A stretch of 37,891 nucleotides of DNA from Bacteroidota bacterium (GTDB lineage Bacteria; Bacteroidota; Bacteroidia; Bacteroidales; B18-G4): contig JAHJRE010000232.1 of NCBI GenBank assembly GCA_018831055.1, positions 1 to 37,891 on the forward strand. Reading direction: 5' to 3'. Positions 14,524 through 36,334 of the stretch are shown here, piece by piece. The notes beneath the pieces were generated by a model that ran no database searches, was not told where the DNA came from, and worked only from the letters and a program-made list of their open reading frames with translations. Position numbers and translations under genes: made by a program. The stretch's first letter is position 1, and each line of letters begins with the position of its first letter.

Positions 14524-15537
14524 ATGGCAGCAAAATCAAAATATACAGACCTCCTGGAAGATTTCAGCAAGCTAAAAGTTTTGATCCTGGGCGATGTTAT
14601 GATTGATGCTTATTTATGGGGCAAAGTGGAAAGAATCTCACCGGAAGCACCCGTACCTATCGTTGCTGTGCATAAAAGGGAGGAAAGATTGGGAGGGGCT
14701 GCCAATGTTGCATTGAACGTTAAATCGCTCGGCGCGGTTCCTATTCTTTGCTCTGTAATTGGTAATGATATTAAGGGTGATCTTTTCATTAAGCTTTTGG
14801 AGAAAGAAGGAATGGATACTACCGGTATCATAAAGAGTTCCGGTCGTGTAACAACAACAAAGTTTCGCATCATCGGTAATAATTCACAGATGCTCCGTGT
14901 GGATGAGGAAAGTACAACAGAACTTAATGCAGCTGATACCACAAGCATTGTTACGGTGATCAAGGATATTCTAAAGCAACATAAGATTGATGTTCTTATA
15001 TTTCAGGATTATAATAAAGGGATCCTCACACAGAAAGTTATCCGCAAAGTGATTGAAATGGCCACAGAAAGTAACATTCCAGTTGCGGTGGACCCAAAAA
15101 TCCAAAATTTCAGTGCTTACAAAGGAATAACCCTGTTCAAACCAAACCTGAAAGAGCTAAAGGAGGGATTGAAATATGATTTCAATCACCGCGATATCAA
15201 AGAACTTAACCAGGTTGTCCAGAAACTCCAGGAAAAACAACAGATTCAACATGCACTGATAACAATGTCGGAGGATGGCATCTATATTTCATCGAGGGAG
15301 GGGAACCAAAGATATATTCACAGTATCCCGGCTCATCGCCGTTCTATTGCTGATGTCAGCGGGGCAGGGGATACCGTCATCAGTGTAGCTGCCCTTTGCC
15401 TTGCCAGCCGTTGTATGCCTTATGAGATAGCTGCCATTTCAAACCTGGCAGGCGGCATTGTTTGTGAAGAAATTGGAGTCGTTCCTGTAAAAAGGGAAAA
15501 GTTGATGGCTGAACTGGTAAGATTAAATAACCTGTAA
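14524..15537 (+). CDS. D-glycero-beta-D-manno-heptose-7-phosphate kinase domain protein (HldE/RfaE type I)
   Basis: The 337-residue protein is a PfkB-family sugar kinase. It shows ILGDVMIDAYLWG near residues 19-31, GGAANVALN near 57-65, and the C-terminal PfkB signature SGAGDTVISVAAL with Gly280, Ala281, Gly282 and catalytic Asp283. ISPEAPVPIV after the first motif is typical of the heptose-7-phosphate kinase half of HldE. The nucleotidyltransferase half is absent, as in organisms with separate HldA and HldC. It would phosphorylate heptose-7-phosphate at C1 on the way to ADP-heptose for LPS core. It lies 25 bp after the aminotransferase and converges on a small ORF. Confidence 0.9.
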   Translation: MAAKSKYTDLLEDFSKLKVLILGDVMIDAYLWGKVERISPEAPVPIVAVHKREERLGGAANVALNVKSLGAVPILCSVIGNDIKGDLFIKLLEKEGMDTTGIIKSSGRVTTTKFRIIGNNSQMLRVDEESTTELNAADTTSIVTVIKDILKQHKIDVLIFQDYNKGILTQKVIRKVIEMATESNIPVAVDPKIQNFSAYKGITLFKPNLKELKEGLKYDFNHRDIKELNQVVQKLQEKQQIQHALITMSEDGIYISSREGNQRYIHSIPAHRRSIADVSGAGDTVISVAALCLASRCMPYEIAAISNLAGGIVCEEIGVVPVKREKLMAELVRLNNL

Positions 15538-15545
15538 CGGGATAT

Positions 15546-15749
15546 TCAATTCCTCGTTAAACTAACTCCGAACCAGCGCATTACTTTGTCAGACCAGGCT
15601 TCACGATTCATATCCTTTTTATCTTCCGGGAGGCTGTTTTCAAGATAATTGTTGATAATCCTCTGATGTTCCTCAAAGGGATGTATTAAACCATCTTCCA
15701 GGATGGCGGAAAAATCTCCGGGGTTTCTGTTGAAGTCCAGTTCGCTCAT
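15546..15749 (-). CDS. Small hypothetical protein
   Basis: This is a 67-residue acidic, soluble ORF with an ATG start and no recognised family. It contains the segments DGLIHPFEEHQRIINNYL and WSDKVMRWFGVSL. The composition is protein-like (amphipathic helices, aromatic residues) rather than shadow-like. It occupies the spacer directly after the convergent heptose kinase gene, 8 bp between stops. No promoter or terminator was found. It is called from composition and position only. Confidence 0.55.
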   Translation of the reverse strand: MSELDFNRNPGDFSAILEDGLIHPFEEHQRIINNYLENSLPEDKKDMNREAWSDKVMRWFGVSLTRN

Positions 15750-15980
15750 AGTAGTTTATTTATAGTATTTAGACAAGCATGTATTTCTCTTCGTTGCACT
15801 TGATGAAAGAATATTTTTATCCTTAAAACGACCGTTGTAAAAGCTTGTATCCTTTACTGTATCTGGCGTAAATCAGTGTAACCTTCTACTATCTTAACAA
15901 TGAGAATAAGGCATTGTTCAGGAATAAATACAAAAGAATTGGGTGTTTATTGGGGGATTTTTAAAACAAGACTCAGGGGA

Positions 15981-16253
15981 CAAGCGGCAAGCAACAGGCG
16001 GCAAGCAACAGGCGGCAAGCAACAGGCGGCAAGCTGCAAGCTGCAAGCGGCAAGTTACAAGCTACAAGTTACAAGTTACAAGTTACAAGCGGCAAGTTAC
16101 AAGCTGCAAGCTACAGGTTGCAGCTTGTAGCCTGTAACCTGTACCCTGCCGCCTGTACCCTGCCGCCTGTAGCATGCTCCCAGCTCCCAGCTCCCAGTTC
16201 CCAGCTCCCAGCTCCCAGCTCCCAGCTCCCAGTTCCCAGCTCCCACCTCCCAG
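15981..16253. repeat. 39-unit tandem heptamer array in perfect 7-nt register
   Basis: The 273 bp divide exactly into 39 heptamers without one slip. Units 1-20 (15981-16120) are CAAGCGG, CAAGCAA, CAGGCGG, CAAGTTA, CAAGCTG and relatives. Units 21-28 (16121-16176) are of the complementary type, such as TAGCCTG, TAACCTG and CCGCCTG. Units 29-39 (16177-16253) are CTCCCAG with TTCCCAG variants. The change from CARG-type to CCTG-type units near 16120 gives a degenerate inverted repeat. Short ORFs open through it on both strands are a result of the repeat composition and are not called. The rest of the 15750-16408 gap holds only the porT promoter. Confidence 0.95.
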
Positions 16254-16321
16254 CCCCCCAAATTTCCTTCATTCTCTTTTCTTCCTGAATGTGATCTCAG
16301 ATTTTGCATTCTGCGAATGTC

Positions 16322-16352
16322 TTTAGAAAGCAAAGTAATTTTCGTAAGTTTG
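16322..16352 (+). promoter_or_regulatory. Promoter of porT
   Basis: TTTA (16322-16325) and TAAGTTTG (16345-16352) are exactly 19 bp apart. The -7 box is a full match to TAnnTTTG and the -33 box differs at one base. This puts the transcription start near 16358 and rules out translation starts upstream of it. Confidence 0.55.
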
Positions 16353-16408
16353 CACCGGATTTTTTAAGGCATGGAAATATTTTAACACGCTTGCCGTTAG
16401 TGAGATTA

Positions 16409-17194
16409 ATGAATCGGAAAAATTTGAAGAATTTCAGGATCCCCATAGTATTGCTGTTTGTTTTAGCCCTGTCCGGGATTAATCATGTTAAAGGACAGCG
16501 TCAACCTATGAACCTCCCGGCATATGATTACTCACCGTATCATTTTGGGTTTGTTCTGGCAGTGAATCAGATGAATTTTGCATTGCAGTTAAAGGATAAT
16601 GCCTCCCTGATAACATTCGATTCGGCCATGTCTCCCGATTTTTTTGCCGATTCTGTGCGGATTATGTCGGTCACATCCAAGCCAACCCTTGGCTTCACAA
16701 TCGGTATCGTGTCAAATCTGAGGCTAGGAAAGTATTTCGATCTGCGGTTTGTTCCTTCACTGGCTTTCGGTGAACGCAGGCTCAACTATACTTTCCTGCG
16801 CTATAAGGATGATGCGGTAAGTACCGTGGAATTTGAAAAAAATATTACTTCAACGTACGTTGAATTTCCCCTGCATATTAAATATAAGTCGAAACGGCTG
16901 AATAATGTGAGAGCTTATGTAATTGCCGGAGGTAAATACGTGATTGACCTGGCGACCACCAAGGCCGATAAGGATGAAGAAAAGAACAATACACTGGTTA
17001 AATTAAACAGAAACGATTTCCTGCTGGAGGCCGGTGTAGGTTTCGATTTTTATAACGGCTGGTTCAAGTTCGGCACAGAGATCAAAATGGCTTATGGATT
17101 GACGGATATCCTCAAACGGGAAGATAACATTTATACCGAAGGAATAAAAAGTATGCGGTCGCAGATATTTCAGATTTCTTTTACCTTTGAATAG
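16409..17194 (+). CDS. porT: PorT-like outer membrane beta-barrel protein (type IX secretion)
   Basis: The 261-residue protein has a signal peptide (residues 1-29, a basic start, hydrophobic core, ending VKGQ) and then an outer-membrane beta-barrel pattern. The segment YDYSPYHFGFVLAVNQMNF after the signal peptide is typical of PorT/SprT. Later amphipathic strands (FDLRFVPSLAFGERRLNYTF, STYVEFPLHIKYKS) and a C-terminal Phe (FQISFTFE) fit a barrel. PorT is needed for type IX secretion in Porphyromonas and gliding Bacteroidota. The frame is open from 16304, but a promoter at 16322-16352 makes the ATG at 16409 the start. Three T9SS cargo genes in the window fit this call. Confidence 0.82.
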   Translation: MNRKNLKNFRIPIVLLFVLALSGINHVKGQRQPMNLPAYDYSPYHFGFVLAVNQMNFALQLKDNASLITFDSAMSPDFFADSVRIMSVTSKPTLGFTIGIVSNLRLGKYFDLRFVPSLAFGERRLNYTFLRYKDDAVSTVEFEKNITSTYVEFPLHIKYKSKRLNNVRAYVIAGGKYVIDLATTKADKDEEKNNTLVKLNRNDFLLEAGVGFDFYNGWFKFGTEIKMAYGLTDILKREDNIYTEGIKSMRSQIFQISFTFE

Positions 17195-17212
17195 AGCTTA
17201 ATAACATTGCCT

Positions 17213-17902
17213 ATGAAACCCGCATCCGGTAATCATGAATTATTAAACCACATGGTGGAGAAGGGCTGTCTGAAACAGAAAGTATATAACAATACGTGTG
17301 CGGCACAGAACCTTTTTAAAAAGACTTTCCTGGAAATGAAGAAAGATTATGAAAACGGTGATATTTCCTGTGAAACTCCCATACCTTTTGAGTTTAAAGA
17401 TAAGAGTGAGTTTGAAACCGAACTCCGTTTTGCCGGTGATGTGCTGATTTTCATGATGCATACCAATGTGTTCCAGTTCCCTCGCGATCACTTTATCCAC
17501 AATACTTCTTATGTAAAAGAAGATCCCACGCGTTCCTTTTGCGGGATGATCAGTATCTATAATTTTCTTAGTGATTCCATTCATTACAGGAGGGTGAACG
17601 ATATTGGTTACCTCATCGGGAGGGTTTTTATTAATAAGGATAGTCATTTTTACCTTGATGGAAAACGGGAACTGCGGCTGCTCCCCAATAATTTCACCGA
17701 AATGGTTTTTGATCACGAAAAAGCCAGAGTGATCGTGGAGTCTGCTATCCGTTATACTGTTGATTTCGACCTGCTGGTACCCCCTTATGACCAGGTTAAA
17801 GAGATCTCCGTTATGGAGATCATTTCGACCCTCGATACCATGACCATCAAAACCGGTAAACGCCTTGGCTTTAAATTCCAGGCCGACCAGGAAGAACTTT
17901 GA
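17213..17902 (+). CDS. Conserved-looking protein of unknown function downstream of porT
   Basis: The 229-residue protein has no signal peptide or membrane segment and no motif I recognise. It contains CGMISIYNFLSDSIHYRR (about 109-126) and an IGYLIGRVFINKDSHFYLDG segment that looks like beta strands. A Cys at residue 18 is followed by a second at 28 near the N-terminus. The ATG at 17213 is chosen over a TTG two codons upstream. It starts 18 bp after the porT stop and is probably cotranscribed with it. Element A begins 5 bp after its stop. Confidence 0.7.
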   Translation: MKPASGNHELLNHMVEKGCLKQKVYNNTCAAQNLFKKTFLEMKKDYENGDISCETPIPFEFKDKSEFETELRFAGDVLIFMMHTNVFQFPRDHFIHNTSYVKEDPTRSFCGMISIYNFLSDSIHYRRVNDIGYLIGRVFINKDSHFYLDGKRELRLLPNNFTEMVFDHEKARVIVESAIRYTVDFDLLVPPYDQVKEISVMEIISTLDTMTIKTGKRLGFKFQADQEEL

Positions 17903-17907
17903 TTTTT

Positions 17908-18036
17908 ATCAGTAGTATCAGAAATGATTAATATCAGGTTACAGCCTGTAACCTGTAACCTGCAGCCTGTAACCTGCAGCCTGTAACCAGCAGCCTGTAA
18001 CCTGCAACTTGCTGTTAATCCTCCCCGATAGTGATA
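17908..18036. repeat. Element A: heptamer core between inverted ends
   Basis: The left end contains GTATCAGAAATGATTAATATC (17915-17935, last base shared with the core) and the right end is a degenerate inverted copy (reverse complement CTATCGGGGAGGATTAA). Between them 17935-18011 is eleven heptamers in register: CAGGTTA, CAGCCTG, TAACCTG (repeated), TAACCAG and CAACTTG. The left end matches the reverse complement of the right ends of elements B and C (GAATGATTAATATC), so this is a divergent member of the same family. It lies between the stop codon of the unknown gene and the tRNA-Glu promoter. Confidence 0.65.
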
Positions 18037-18052
18037 ATTTTTAATAAACATT

Positions 18053-18082
18053 TTTGTGGATTCAAAAATTGTATTATTTTTG
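18053..18082 (+). promoter_or_regulatory. Promoter of tRNA-Glu
   Basis: TTTG (18053-18056) and TATTTTTG (18075-18082) are 18 bp apart and both match the Bacteroidota -33/-7 consensus fully. The tRNA 5' end lies 16 bp downstream of the -7 box. Confidence 0.7.
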
Positions 18083-18097
18083 CACTCCCAAAATGCC

Positions 18098-18171
18098 GGC
18101 CCGTTCGTCTAGCCAGGTCAGGACGCCAGGTTTTCATCCTGGTAACAGGGGTTCGAATCCCCTACGGGCTA
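18098..18171 (+). tRNA. tRNA-Glu (anticodon UUC)
   Basis: The 74-nt sequence folds as a cloverleaf. The acceptor stem pairs GGCCCGT (18098-18104) with ACGGGCT (18164-18170), with a G-U pair at position 1-72. The anticodon stem CCAGG/CCTGG encloses the loop TTTTCAT with anticodon TTC, and the T arm is AGGGG-TTCGAAT-CCCCT. The discriminator is A. The 3' CCA is not encoded (CTA follows), so the end must be added by nucleotidyltransferase. It has its own promoter and terminator and sits between repeat elements A and B. Confidence 0.97.
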
Positions 18172-18173
18172 CT

Positions 18174-18208
18174 AAAACCCCCCAGTGCTTTGTGCTGGGG
18201 GGTTTTTA
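18174..18208 (+). terminator. Rho-independent terminator of tRNA-Glu
   Basis: AAAACCCCCCAG (18174-18185) pairs with CTGGGGGGTTTT (18195-18206) around a 9-nt loop, and the stem runs into a T tail. It begins 2 bp after the tRNA discriminator base. The symmetrical A and T runs could let it act in both directions. Confidence 0.9.
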
Positions 18209-18210
18209 TT

Positions 18211-18371
18211 TTATATAAGTATCGGAAAACATTCACACAACGTTACAGGCGACAGGTTGCAAGCGACAACTCAATACTCATCACTCATCAACCACACTAC
18301 CTGCAACCTGCATCCTGCAACCATAGAGCAGGTAACTTGATATTAATCATTCCCGATACTCATTTTATTTT
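18211..18371. repeat. Element B: MITE-like element with heptamer core
   Basis: The left end (AAGTATCGGAAAACATT, 18217-18233) is the inverted partner of the right end (AATCATTCCCGATACTCAT, 18345-18363). The core 18242-18325 divides into twelve heptamers (GTTACAG, GCGACAG, GTTGCAA, GCGACAA, CTCATCA, TACCTGC, AACCTGC and others). The right 66 bp (18306-18371) match element C (36266-36331) at 65 positions, and the left 57 bp (18217-18273) match C (36153-36209) at 51. No transposase ORF is inside, so it would be non-autonomous. Element ends are approximate. From 18372 to 18483 nothing else is seen. Confidence 0.8.
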
Positions 18372-18483
18372 AAATTGACATTTGACCATTGAATGTCTGC
18401 AATTTTCAACCACCAATTATATGTTTATCAATGTCTTTTACTACAATTCATCAATAAAAATCGATATTTCACACGATTTAATA

Positions 18484-18816
18484 TCAATAAGTCATTATCT
18501 CCATCAATCCGTTTTTAATCACACTCAGTTGCTCTGTGCTTATTTCGCCAATCTTTTTTAACATCCTGTCTTTTGAAATTGCCCTAACCTGGAAGGTTAT
18601 GACTTCCGAATCCTGTTCAAGGTTATTGATATTGTTTTTGTTAAGGACGATACATCCTGCATAATTCTTTATTTTGGTGGTCAAAGGGCATACTATGCAA
18701 ATGTGAAGGTTATCATTCATGGTATTACCACTAATAATAACTACAGGACGTATTCCTTTTTGCTCACTCCCCTTTACAGGATTCAAATCTGTCAGGTAAA
18801 TATCCCTTTGCTTCAT
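18484..18816 (-). CDS. MazF/PemK-type toxin endoribonuclease
   Basis: The 110-residue protein matches the MazF/PemK family. It begins RDIYLTDLNPVKGSEQKGIRPVVII in pattern, with the G-x-RP-VVI strand that carries the catalytic Arg, followed by IVCPLTTKI with the conserved Thr, and FQVRAISKDRM with the substrate-binding segment. MazF toxins cut mRNA at short single-stranded sites. Its start overlaps the end of the ribbon-helix-helix antitoxin gene by 4 bp (ATGA), the usual antitoxin-first order. No recognition site can be predicted. Conserved residues are intact, so it is probably active. Confidence 0.9.
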   Translation of the reverse strand: MKQRDIYLTDLNPVKGSEQKGIRPVVIISGNTMNDNLHICIVCPLTTKIKNYAGCIVLNKNNINNLEQDSEVITFQVRAISKDRMLKKIGEISTEQLSVIKNGLMEIMTY

Positions 18817-19055
18817 TCGTCCAGGATTTTAAGATAATCCGATAAACCTTCCTCTGCCATGGTCAGCATTTCTTCATCCCTGGATGCCCTGAGAAATGAA
18901 TGTTTGTATTCAGCCTTTTTCAGTCTTTCAAAATATGACTTTAGAGCTTCTTCCAGGATCCTGTTCCTGGGTACTCCGAATTTCTTTGAATATTCATGGA
19001 TCATACTGACCAATCCTGCCGGCAATGAAGTTGTAAGTACGATGTTTCCTTTCAT
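18813..19055 (-). CDS. Ribbon-helix-helix antitoxin
   Basis: The 80-residue protein has a ribbon-helix-helix DNA-binding region: strand NIVLTTSLPAGL, helix VSMIHEYSKKFG and helix PRNRILEEALKSYFERL. A charged C-terminal tail (about 45-80) follows that would wrap the toxin. Antitoxins of this class bind MazF and repress their own promoter. The ATG at 19055 is chosen over a TTG at 19073 that lies in a -7 box. It is translationally coupled to the mazF-like gene downstream by a 4-bp overlap. Confidence 0.85.
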   Translation of the reverse strand: MKGNIVLTTSLPAGLVSMIHEYSKKFGVPRNRILEEALKSYFERLKKAEYKHSFLRASRDEEMLTMAEEGLSDYLKILDE

Positions 19056-19070
19056 AAAATGAATTTTAAA

Positions 19071-19101
19071 CAAAAATAATAAATAATTATCGTAAATAAA
19101 A
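19071..19101 (-). promoter_or_regulatory. Promoter of the toxin-antitoxin operon
   Basis: On the minus strand TTTA (19098-19101) is followed after exactly 19 bp by TATTTTTG (19071-19078). The -7 box is a full match to TAnnTTTG and the -33 box differs at one base. The antitoxin ATG lies 16 bp downstream of the -7 box. Confidence 0.45.
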
Positions 19102-36140: not shown

Positions 36141-36334
36141 TTTATTTTTTATGAGTATTGGGAAACATTAACACAAAGTTACAGGCGACAAGTTGCAAGC
36201 GACAACTCATCACTCACCCATCACTCATCACTCATCACCCACTCCCACACTACCTGTAGCCTGTAACCTGCATCCTGCAACCATAGAGAAGGTAACTTGA
36301 TATTAATCATTCCCGATACTCATTTTATTTTTTT
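36141..36334. repeat. Element C: MITE-like element with heptamer core
   Basis: The left end ATGAGTATTGGGAAACATTAA (36151-36171, one base over the core of 20) is the inverted partner of the right end TTAATCATTCCCGATACTCAT. The core 36178-36282 is about fifteen heptamers (GTTACAG, GCGACAA, GTTGCAA, CTCATCA, ATCACTC, TGTAGCC, TGTAACC, TGCATCC, TGCAACC), with one slip near 36220. The right 66 bp (36266-36331) match element B at 65 positions. The core is longer than in B, mostly by extra CTCATCA-type units. It fills the 256-bp spacer between the M28 peptidase and SDR genes. No ORF is inside. Confidence 0.82.

Follow-up and report, generated by a model that had tools for sequence, protein, structure and literature searches.

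The locus raises the question of whether two similar heptamer-rich stretches, elements B and C, are copies of one mobile element or owe their likeness to something else. Both lie in the window, the 37,891 nucleotides of contig JAHJRE010000232.1 from an uncultured Bacteroidota bacterium. A sequence-only reading had taken them for a MITE-like mobile element, and this was supported here by multiple copies, exact ends, 8-bp target-site duplications (TSDs), intergenic placement and sites without the element. It is highly probable that the two belong to a family of non-autonomous DNA transposons (MITEs) with a heptamer minisatellite core.

Elements B and C and their family in the genome

B and C matched with E = 1.4e-47, far beyond chance. 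Their right 66 bp (18306-18371 and 36266-36331) differed at exactly one base, as had been claimed, while a recount of the left 57 bp gave 50 identical positions rather than 51. The ends were inverted repeats of the ATGAGTATCGGGAA type, again in agreement with the first description, and the difference in core length was confirmed and consisted mostly of whole heptamers. The extent originally given for B, 18211-18371, reaches into the target duplications; that B and C still agree past CTCAT is due to similar AT-rich target sites, outside the element proper. Both elements are 150-175 bp in length with no gene inside, and a third copy, absent from the sequence-only reading, is located just left of B (Table 1). 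Adjoining B on the other side is a minus strand gene pair (18484-19073) which, from translation only, resembles a MazF/PemK-type toxin and a ribbon-helix-helix antitoxin.

Table 1. Positions of the three element copies in the window and of their parts
Feature	Positions	Strand	Remarks
Element B, complete MITE copy (terminal inverted repeats, heptamer core)	18214-18364		
B left target duplication, TTATTTTA	18206-18213		8/8 identical to 18365-18372
B right target duplication, TTATTTTA	18365-18372		
B left terminal inverted repeat	18214-18235	+	
B right terminal inverted repeat	18343-18364	-	
B interior: left heptamers, ACTCATC/CAACCAC spacer, complementary right heptamers	18236-18342		fold z -2.9
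Element C, complete MITE copy	36150-36324		
C left target duplication, TTATTTTT	36142-36149		8/8 identical to 36325-36332
C right target duplication, TTATTTTT	36325-36332		
C left terminal inverted repeat	36150-36171	+	
C right terminal inverted repeat	36303-36324	-	
C interior, longer heptamer core	36172-36302		fold z -4.4 (DNA), -5.1 (RNA)
Third, more diverged copy	17910-18036		TSDs ATTTTTAT (17902-17909) and ATTTTTAA (18037-18044), 7/8

Further copies were plentiful. In the genome to which the window belongs (4.19 Mb), the B/C query matched 61 pieces, a family of ∼60 loci, and the end pattern ATGAGTATCGGGAANNATTAA at up to three mismatches was found 86 times, compared with no matches for the reversed control. 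Pairing of the ends yielded 35 complete copies of 95-238 bp, all short and without a transposase ORF, bounded by inverted repeats of 18-22 bp, (T)ATGAGTATCGGGAATnAT, in which the terminal base of the element is mostly T or A. An AT-rich TSD of 8 bp was located one base outside ATGAG...CTCAT and is perfect in B and C. When the two flanks of each copy were compared with flanks paired at random, 6.11 of 8 positions matched against 3.87 (z = 9.8), at 8 bp and one exact offset; a 10-bp window at offset 0 and a 12-bp window at offset 1 also scored, solely by containing those 8 bp. The target 8-mers are 94% A+T, and TSD preservation rises with preservation of the ends (Spearman -0.37, p = 0.03).

Four loci of this genome (L046:2113, L070:2042, L081:1765 and L084:1380) have family ends and partly non-heptameric interiors that resemble each other pairwise, and may represent an earlier version of the element. 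Another small repeat, CACAATAGATTTATGAA...CTATTGTGGTTTATATTAA, which is also an inverted repeat, directly adjoins a family copy in two places, at L043:2190-2306 and immediately to the left of L093:2004.

None of the 35 copies was inside a gene by a simple ORF-based gene call, the apparent overlaps being only at ORF edges. Among the 31 copies with both neighbours seen, the neighbours were co-directional at 19, divergent at 11 and convergent at one. C is flanked by genes that, judged by sequence, encode a peptidase and a short-chain dehydrogenase. G001, of the same genus, and three further relatives (G004, G006 and G008) keep this gene pair with no element between its members; the gap is roughly 36-90 bp in these genomes as against 256 bp here. 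Absence was judged by gap length and missing ends, as the relatives' intergenic DNA is too diverged for an empty target to be read at base level. Conservation of this pair in relatives also argues that the contig of the window is correctly placed in its family, as opposed to being stray assembly DNA. Upstream of the orthologous peptidase gene of another genus (G003, L257:640-1010, reverse strand) there is a GGTCACT-type heptamer array without MITE ends.

The heptamer core and its folding

In the genome of the window the core consists of purine-rich heptamers followed by an ACTCATC/CACCCAC spacer and then by complementary heptamers. Of the 25 internal indels of at least 3 bp relative to a single young copy, 14 were exact multiples of 7, and several of the others were of 6, 8, 13 or 15 bp; 10 of the 21 copies with the ACTCATC spacer had lengths equal to 1 modulo 7. 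Tandem arrays in 246 kb sampled from the same genome had a period of 7, 14 or 21 in 30 of 40 cases, in a sample that was centred on the elements and is hence not a whole-genome count; their units are diverse (GCTCCCA, CGATCTT, TCTCATC and GTTTAGG). Few tandem arrays of any kind were present in the smaller samples taken from other genomes. Arrays of unrelated units with period 7 or a multiple were also seen outside MITE ends, in the window at 1-38 and 15980-16258 and elsewhere at L046:3427-3515, L055:2896-2942, L072:1846-1902, L091:647-678 and L094:2905-2996. Given such unrelated arrays outside the family, a core of heptamers is no exclusive trait of the element. The literature already describes an over-representation of heptamers in bacteria and the idea of slippage related to the polymerase footprint (PMC4692102).

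Two explanations without transposition have to be weighed against these data. The first takes B and C for plain heptamer minisatellites, alike merely because slippage led to similar sequences; the frequency of heptamer arrays of many sequences in this genome is in its favour. It leaves unexplained the sharp inverted ends, the TSDs and the presence of the same ends without heptamers elsewhere, and the TSD test contradicts it, so we consider it extremely unlikely. The second is a conserved cis-regulatory RNA or bidirectional terminator, duplicated and kept for its function, which would agree with the strong folding of the elements and with the intergenic position of all copies. As an account of their origin it is already contradicted by the TSD test, the target duplications being exact at 8 bp; moreover, merely 1 of 31 copies is between convergent genes, where terminators would sit, and the same ends enclose unrelated interiors. 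The region with B has no Rfam match to the element, a scan of 15500-18900 (B and the third copy) giving tRNA alone above the gathering score. This explanation is very unlikely.

Folding was a property of the interiors themselves. After removal of 24 bp from each end, interiors folded better than dinucleotide shuffles, with a mean z of -2.4 for the 35 copies here and -3.8 for 24 copies from other genomes, compared with -0.2 and -0.4, respectively, for neighbouring DNA; copies within a genome are related and these numbers are thus not independent.

Distribution and the search for a transposase

BLAST with the element against 98 relatives returned no full copy, only short heptamer-like pieces, and the end pattern at one mismatch was present in none of the other 392 genomes of the same order (393 scanned). 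An exact scan of genome contigs for the end located it in two other Bacteroidota MAGs, JAPLED (Lac Pavin; G099) and CAIPJU (Umea; G100). At up to two mismatches the end was found in 47 of 146 genomes around G100, where the singletons include some chance matches. Paired elements in this group are mostly 81-400 bp and have the same 8-bp TSD at the same offset (z = 8.5). Their interiors are unrelated in sequence to the heptamer interior: G100, G105 and G146 have CCCCTCCTTTTGAAGGAGGGG and AAAATCAATTGATTT...CCCC palindromes, G099 and G145 have GGACTTTAGTCC and CCCCGGACTTAAGTCCGGGG palindromes, and G146 also has a minimal form of 81 bp. Capture of dispersed host repeats as a source of the palindromic interiors was dropped for G099 and G100, since in the loci fetched from these two genomes nearly all of the palindromes are no more than 350 bp from an end. 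Viral contigs gave 21 matches to the end pattern, none with well-matched paired ends. Horizontal entry into the lineage of the window would be the simplest account of this patchy spread.

Interiors thus fold better than shuffles both here and elsewhere, which suggests that the sequence changes and the self-complementary design stays, be it through selection or simply through the manner in which such interiors originate. One set of ends may travel among distant Bacteroidota, with the interior replaced outright yet remaining a self-complementary dyad and the folded interior itself under selection; we offer this tentatively, as possible rather than probable. If true, selection on the folded interior would act through mobility or through an influence on nearby genes, and its shape alone would be conserved.

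The sequence-only reading had also called for a search for a transposase with the same ends; none was found in the fetched loci or by transposase family searches. An 8-bp duplication together with short terminal inverted repeats is a pointer to a DDE enzyme among IS families, and the enzyme of this family is presumably of that type. DDE_Tnp_1 genes were present in eight of nine genomes, with no such ends nearby, and a search for DDE_Tnp_IS1595 (PF12762) in 15 genomes gave one fragment below the cut-off, providing no ground for calling the family IS1595-derived. The DDE searches covered these two families, whereas duplications of 8 bp are also produced by the IS66, ISL3 and IS256 types; draft MAGs, moreover, often miss multicopy IS.

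Among end pairs 0.45-3.5 kb apart in the loci scanned for them, the only candidate for an autonomous copy was a 1249-bp element in G124 (L226:1063-2312) with family ends, a perfect 8-bp TSD and a broken IS200-like Y1 gene (Pfam Y1_Tnp, E = 6.5e-19). A decayed element with family ends in G109 (L242:1272-2256) also holds a broken IS200-like Y1 gene, and palindromes flank the gene in both. These broken genes, and the palindromic interiors in several genomes, would suit an element of the REP/RAYT type, with an IS200-like Y1 transposase as its mover. The G124 gene was rejected as the family transposase: its relatives with an open frame, 65% identical, share the gene and the adjacent palindromes and not the ends, so that it reads as a nested passenger. 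The genome of the window has one distant Y1 gene, which lacks the ends, and the combination of terminal inverted repeats and an 8-bp TSD is against a REP/RAYT architecture. To our knowledge, IS200/IS605-type transposition gives no target duplication and has no terminal repeats of this kind, and the REPIN/RAYT family likewise has no such inverted repeats and no TSD. Movement by a Y1 enzyme is therefore very unlikely indeed.

For B and C as copies of a MITE, the following course may be proposed. A founding element would have arrived by horizontal transfer, and a transposase supplied in trans would cut and join the inverted-repeat ends, inserting the element at AT-rich intergenic sites with duplication of 8 bp of target. 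The interior is a long imperfect dyad, built in this genome from heptamers, which lengthen and shorten mostly by whole units, probably via slippage or unequal recombination, as seems to be the case for other arrays of the genome. After insertion, the element would be a hairpin-forming spacer, rare between convergent genes, and could conceivably affect expression. The analysis defines exact ends, a target rule and a range of hosts for what is apparently an undescribed family of very small mobile elements of uncultured Bacteroidota, in which an array of heptamers that varies in length is carried by a mobile element into intergenic sites. A testable question follows from it, namely why interiors that share ends but no sequence are self-complementary.

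Comparison with known systems

Several described repeats share part of this architecture. MITECca01 of Cardinium is likewise a Bacteroidota MITE (∼240 bp) with many copies in one lineage, but its parental IS982 is in the genome and a tandem core is not described (PMC9769881). The heptameric repeats of Nostoc and Xanthomonas resemble the core in being intergenic and length-variable with 7-bp units, and differ from the family in having no bounding inverted repeats or TSDs and in being of a G-rich quadruplex type (PMC4692102). REPINs and RAYT-associated REPs are also small, gene-less, hairpin-forming intergenic elements moved in trans (PMC3116915, PMC2817692), with the difference that the mover is a Y1 enzyme.

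The nearest precedent, in kind and not in descent, is BrickBuilt/MITEPgRS (464) of Porphyromonas gingivalis, MITEs whose inverted-repeat ends enclose a variable tandem array (PMC4596501). Both systems are from Bacteroidota and are intergenic, with a tandem core in inverted ends, no ORF and a parent known by its ends alone; BrickBuilt/MITEPgRS is likewise multicopy, with about 20 copies (PMC4596501). The BrickBuilt/MITEPgRS unit is 23 or 41 bp rather than 7 bp, the ends are GAGACCTTYGCA / GAGACCTTTGCA (IS5-like; Table 2 of PMC4596501) as opposed to ATGAGTATCGGGAAT here, and the TSD varies in length whereas it is fixed at 8 bp in the present family (PMC4596501). Replaceable interiors in other orders, as seen here, are not described for BrickBuilt/MITEPgRS (PMC4596501).
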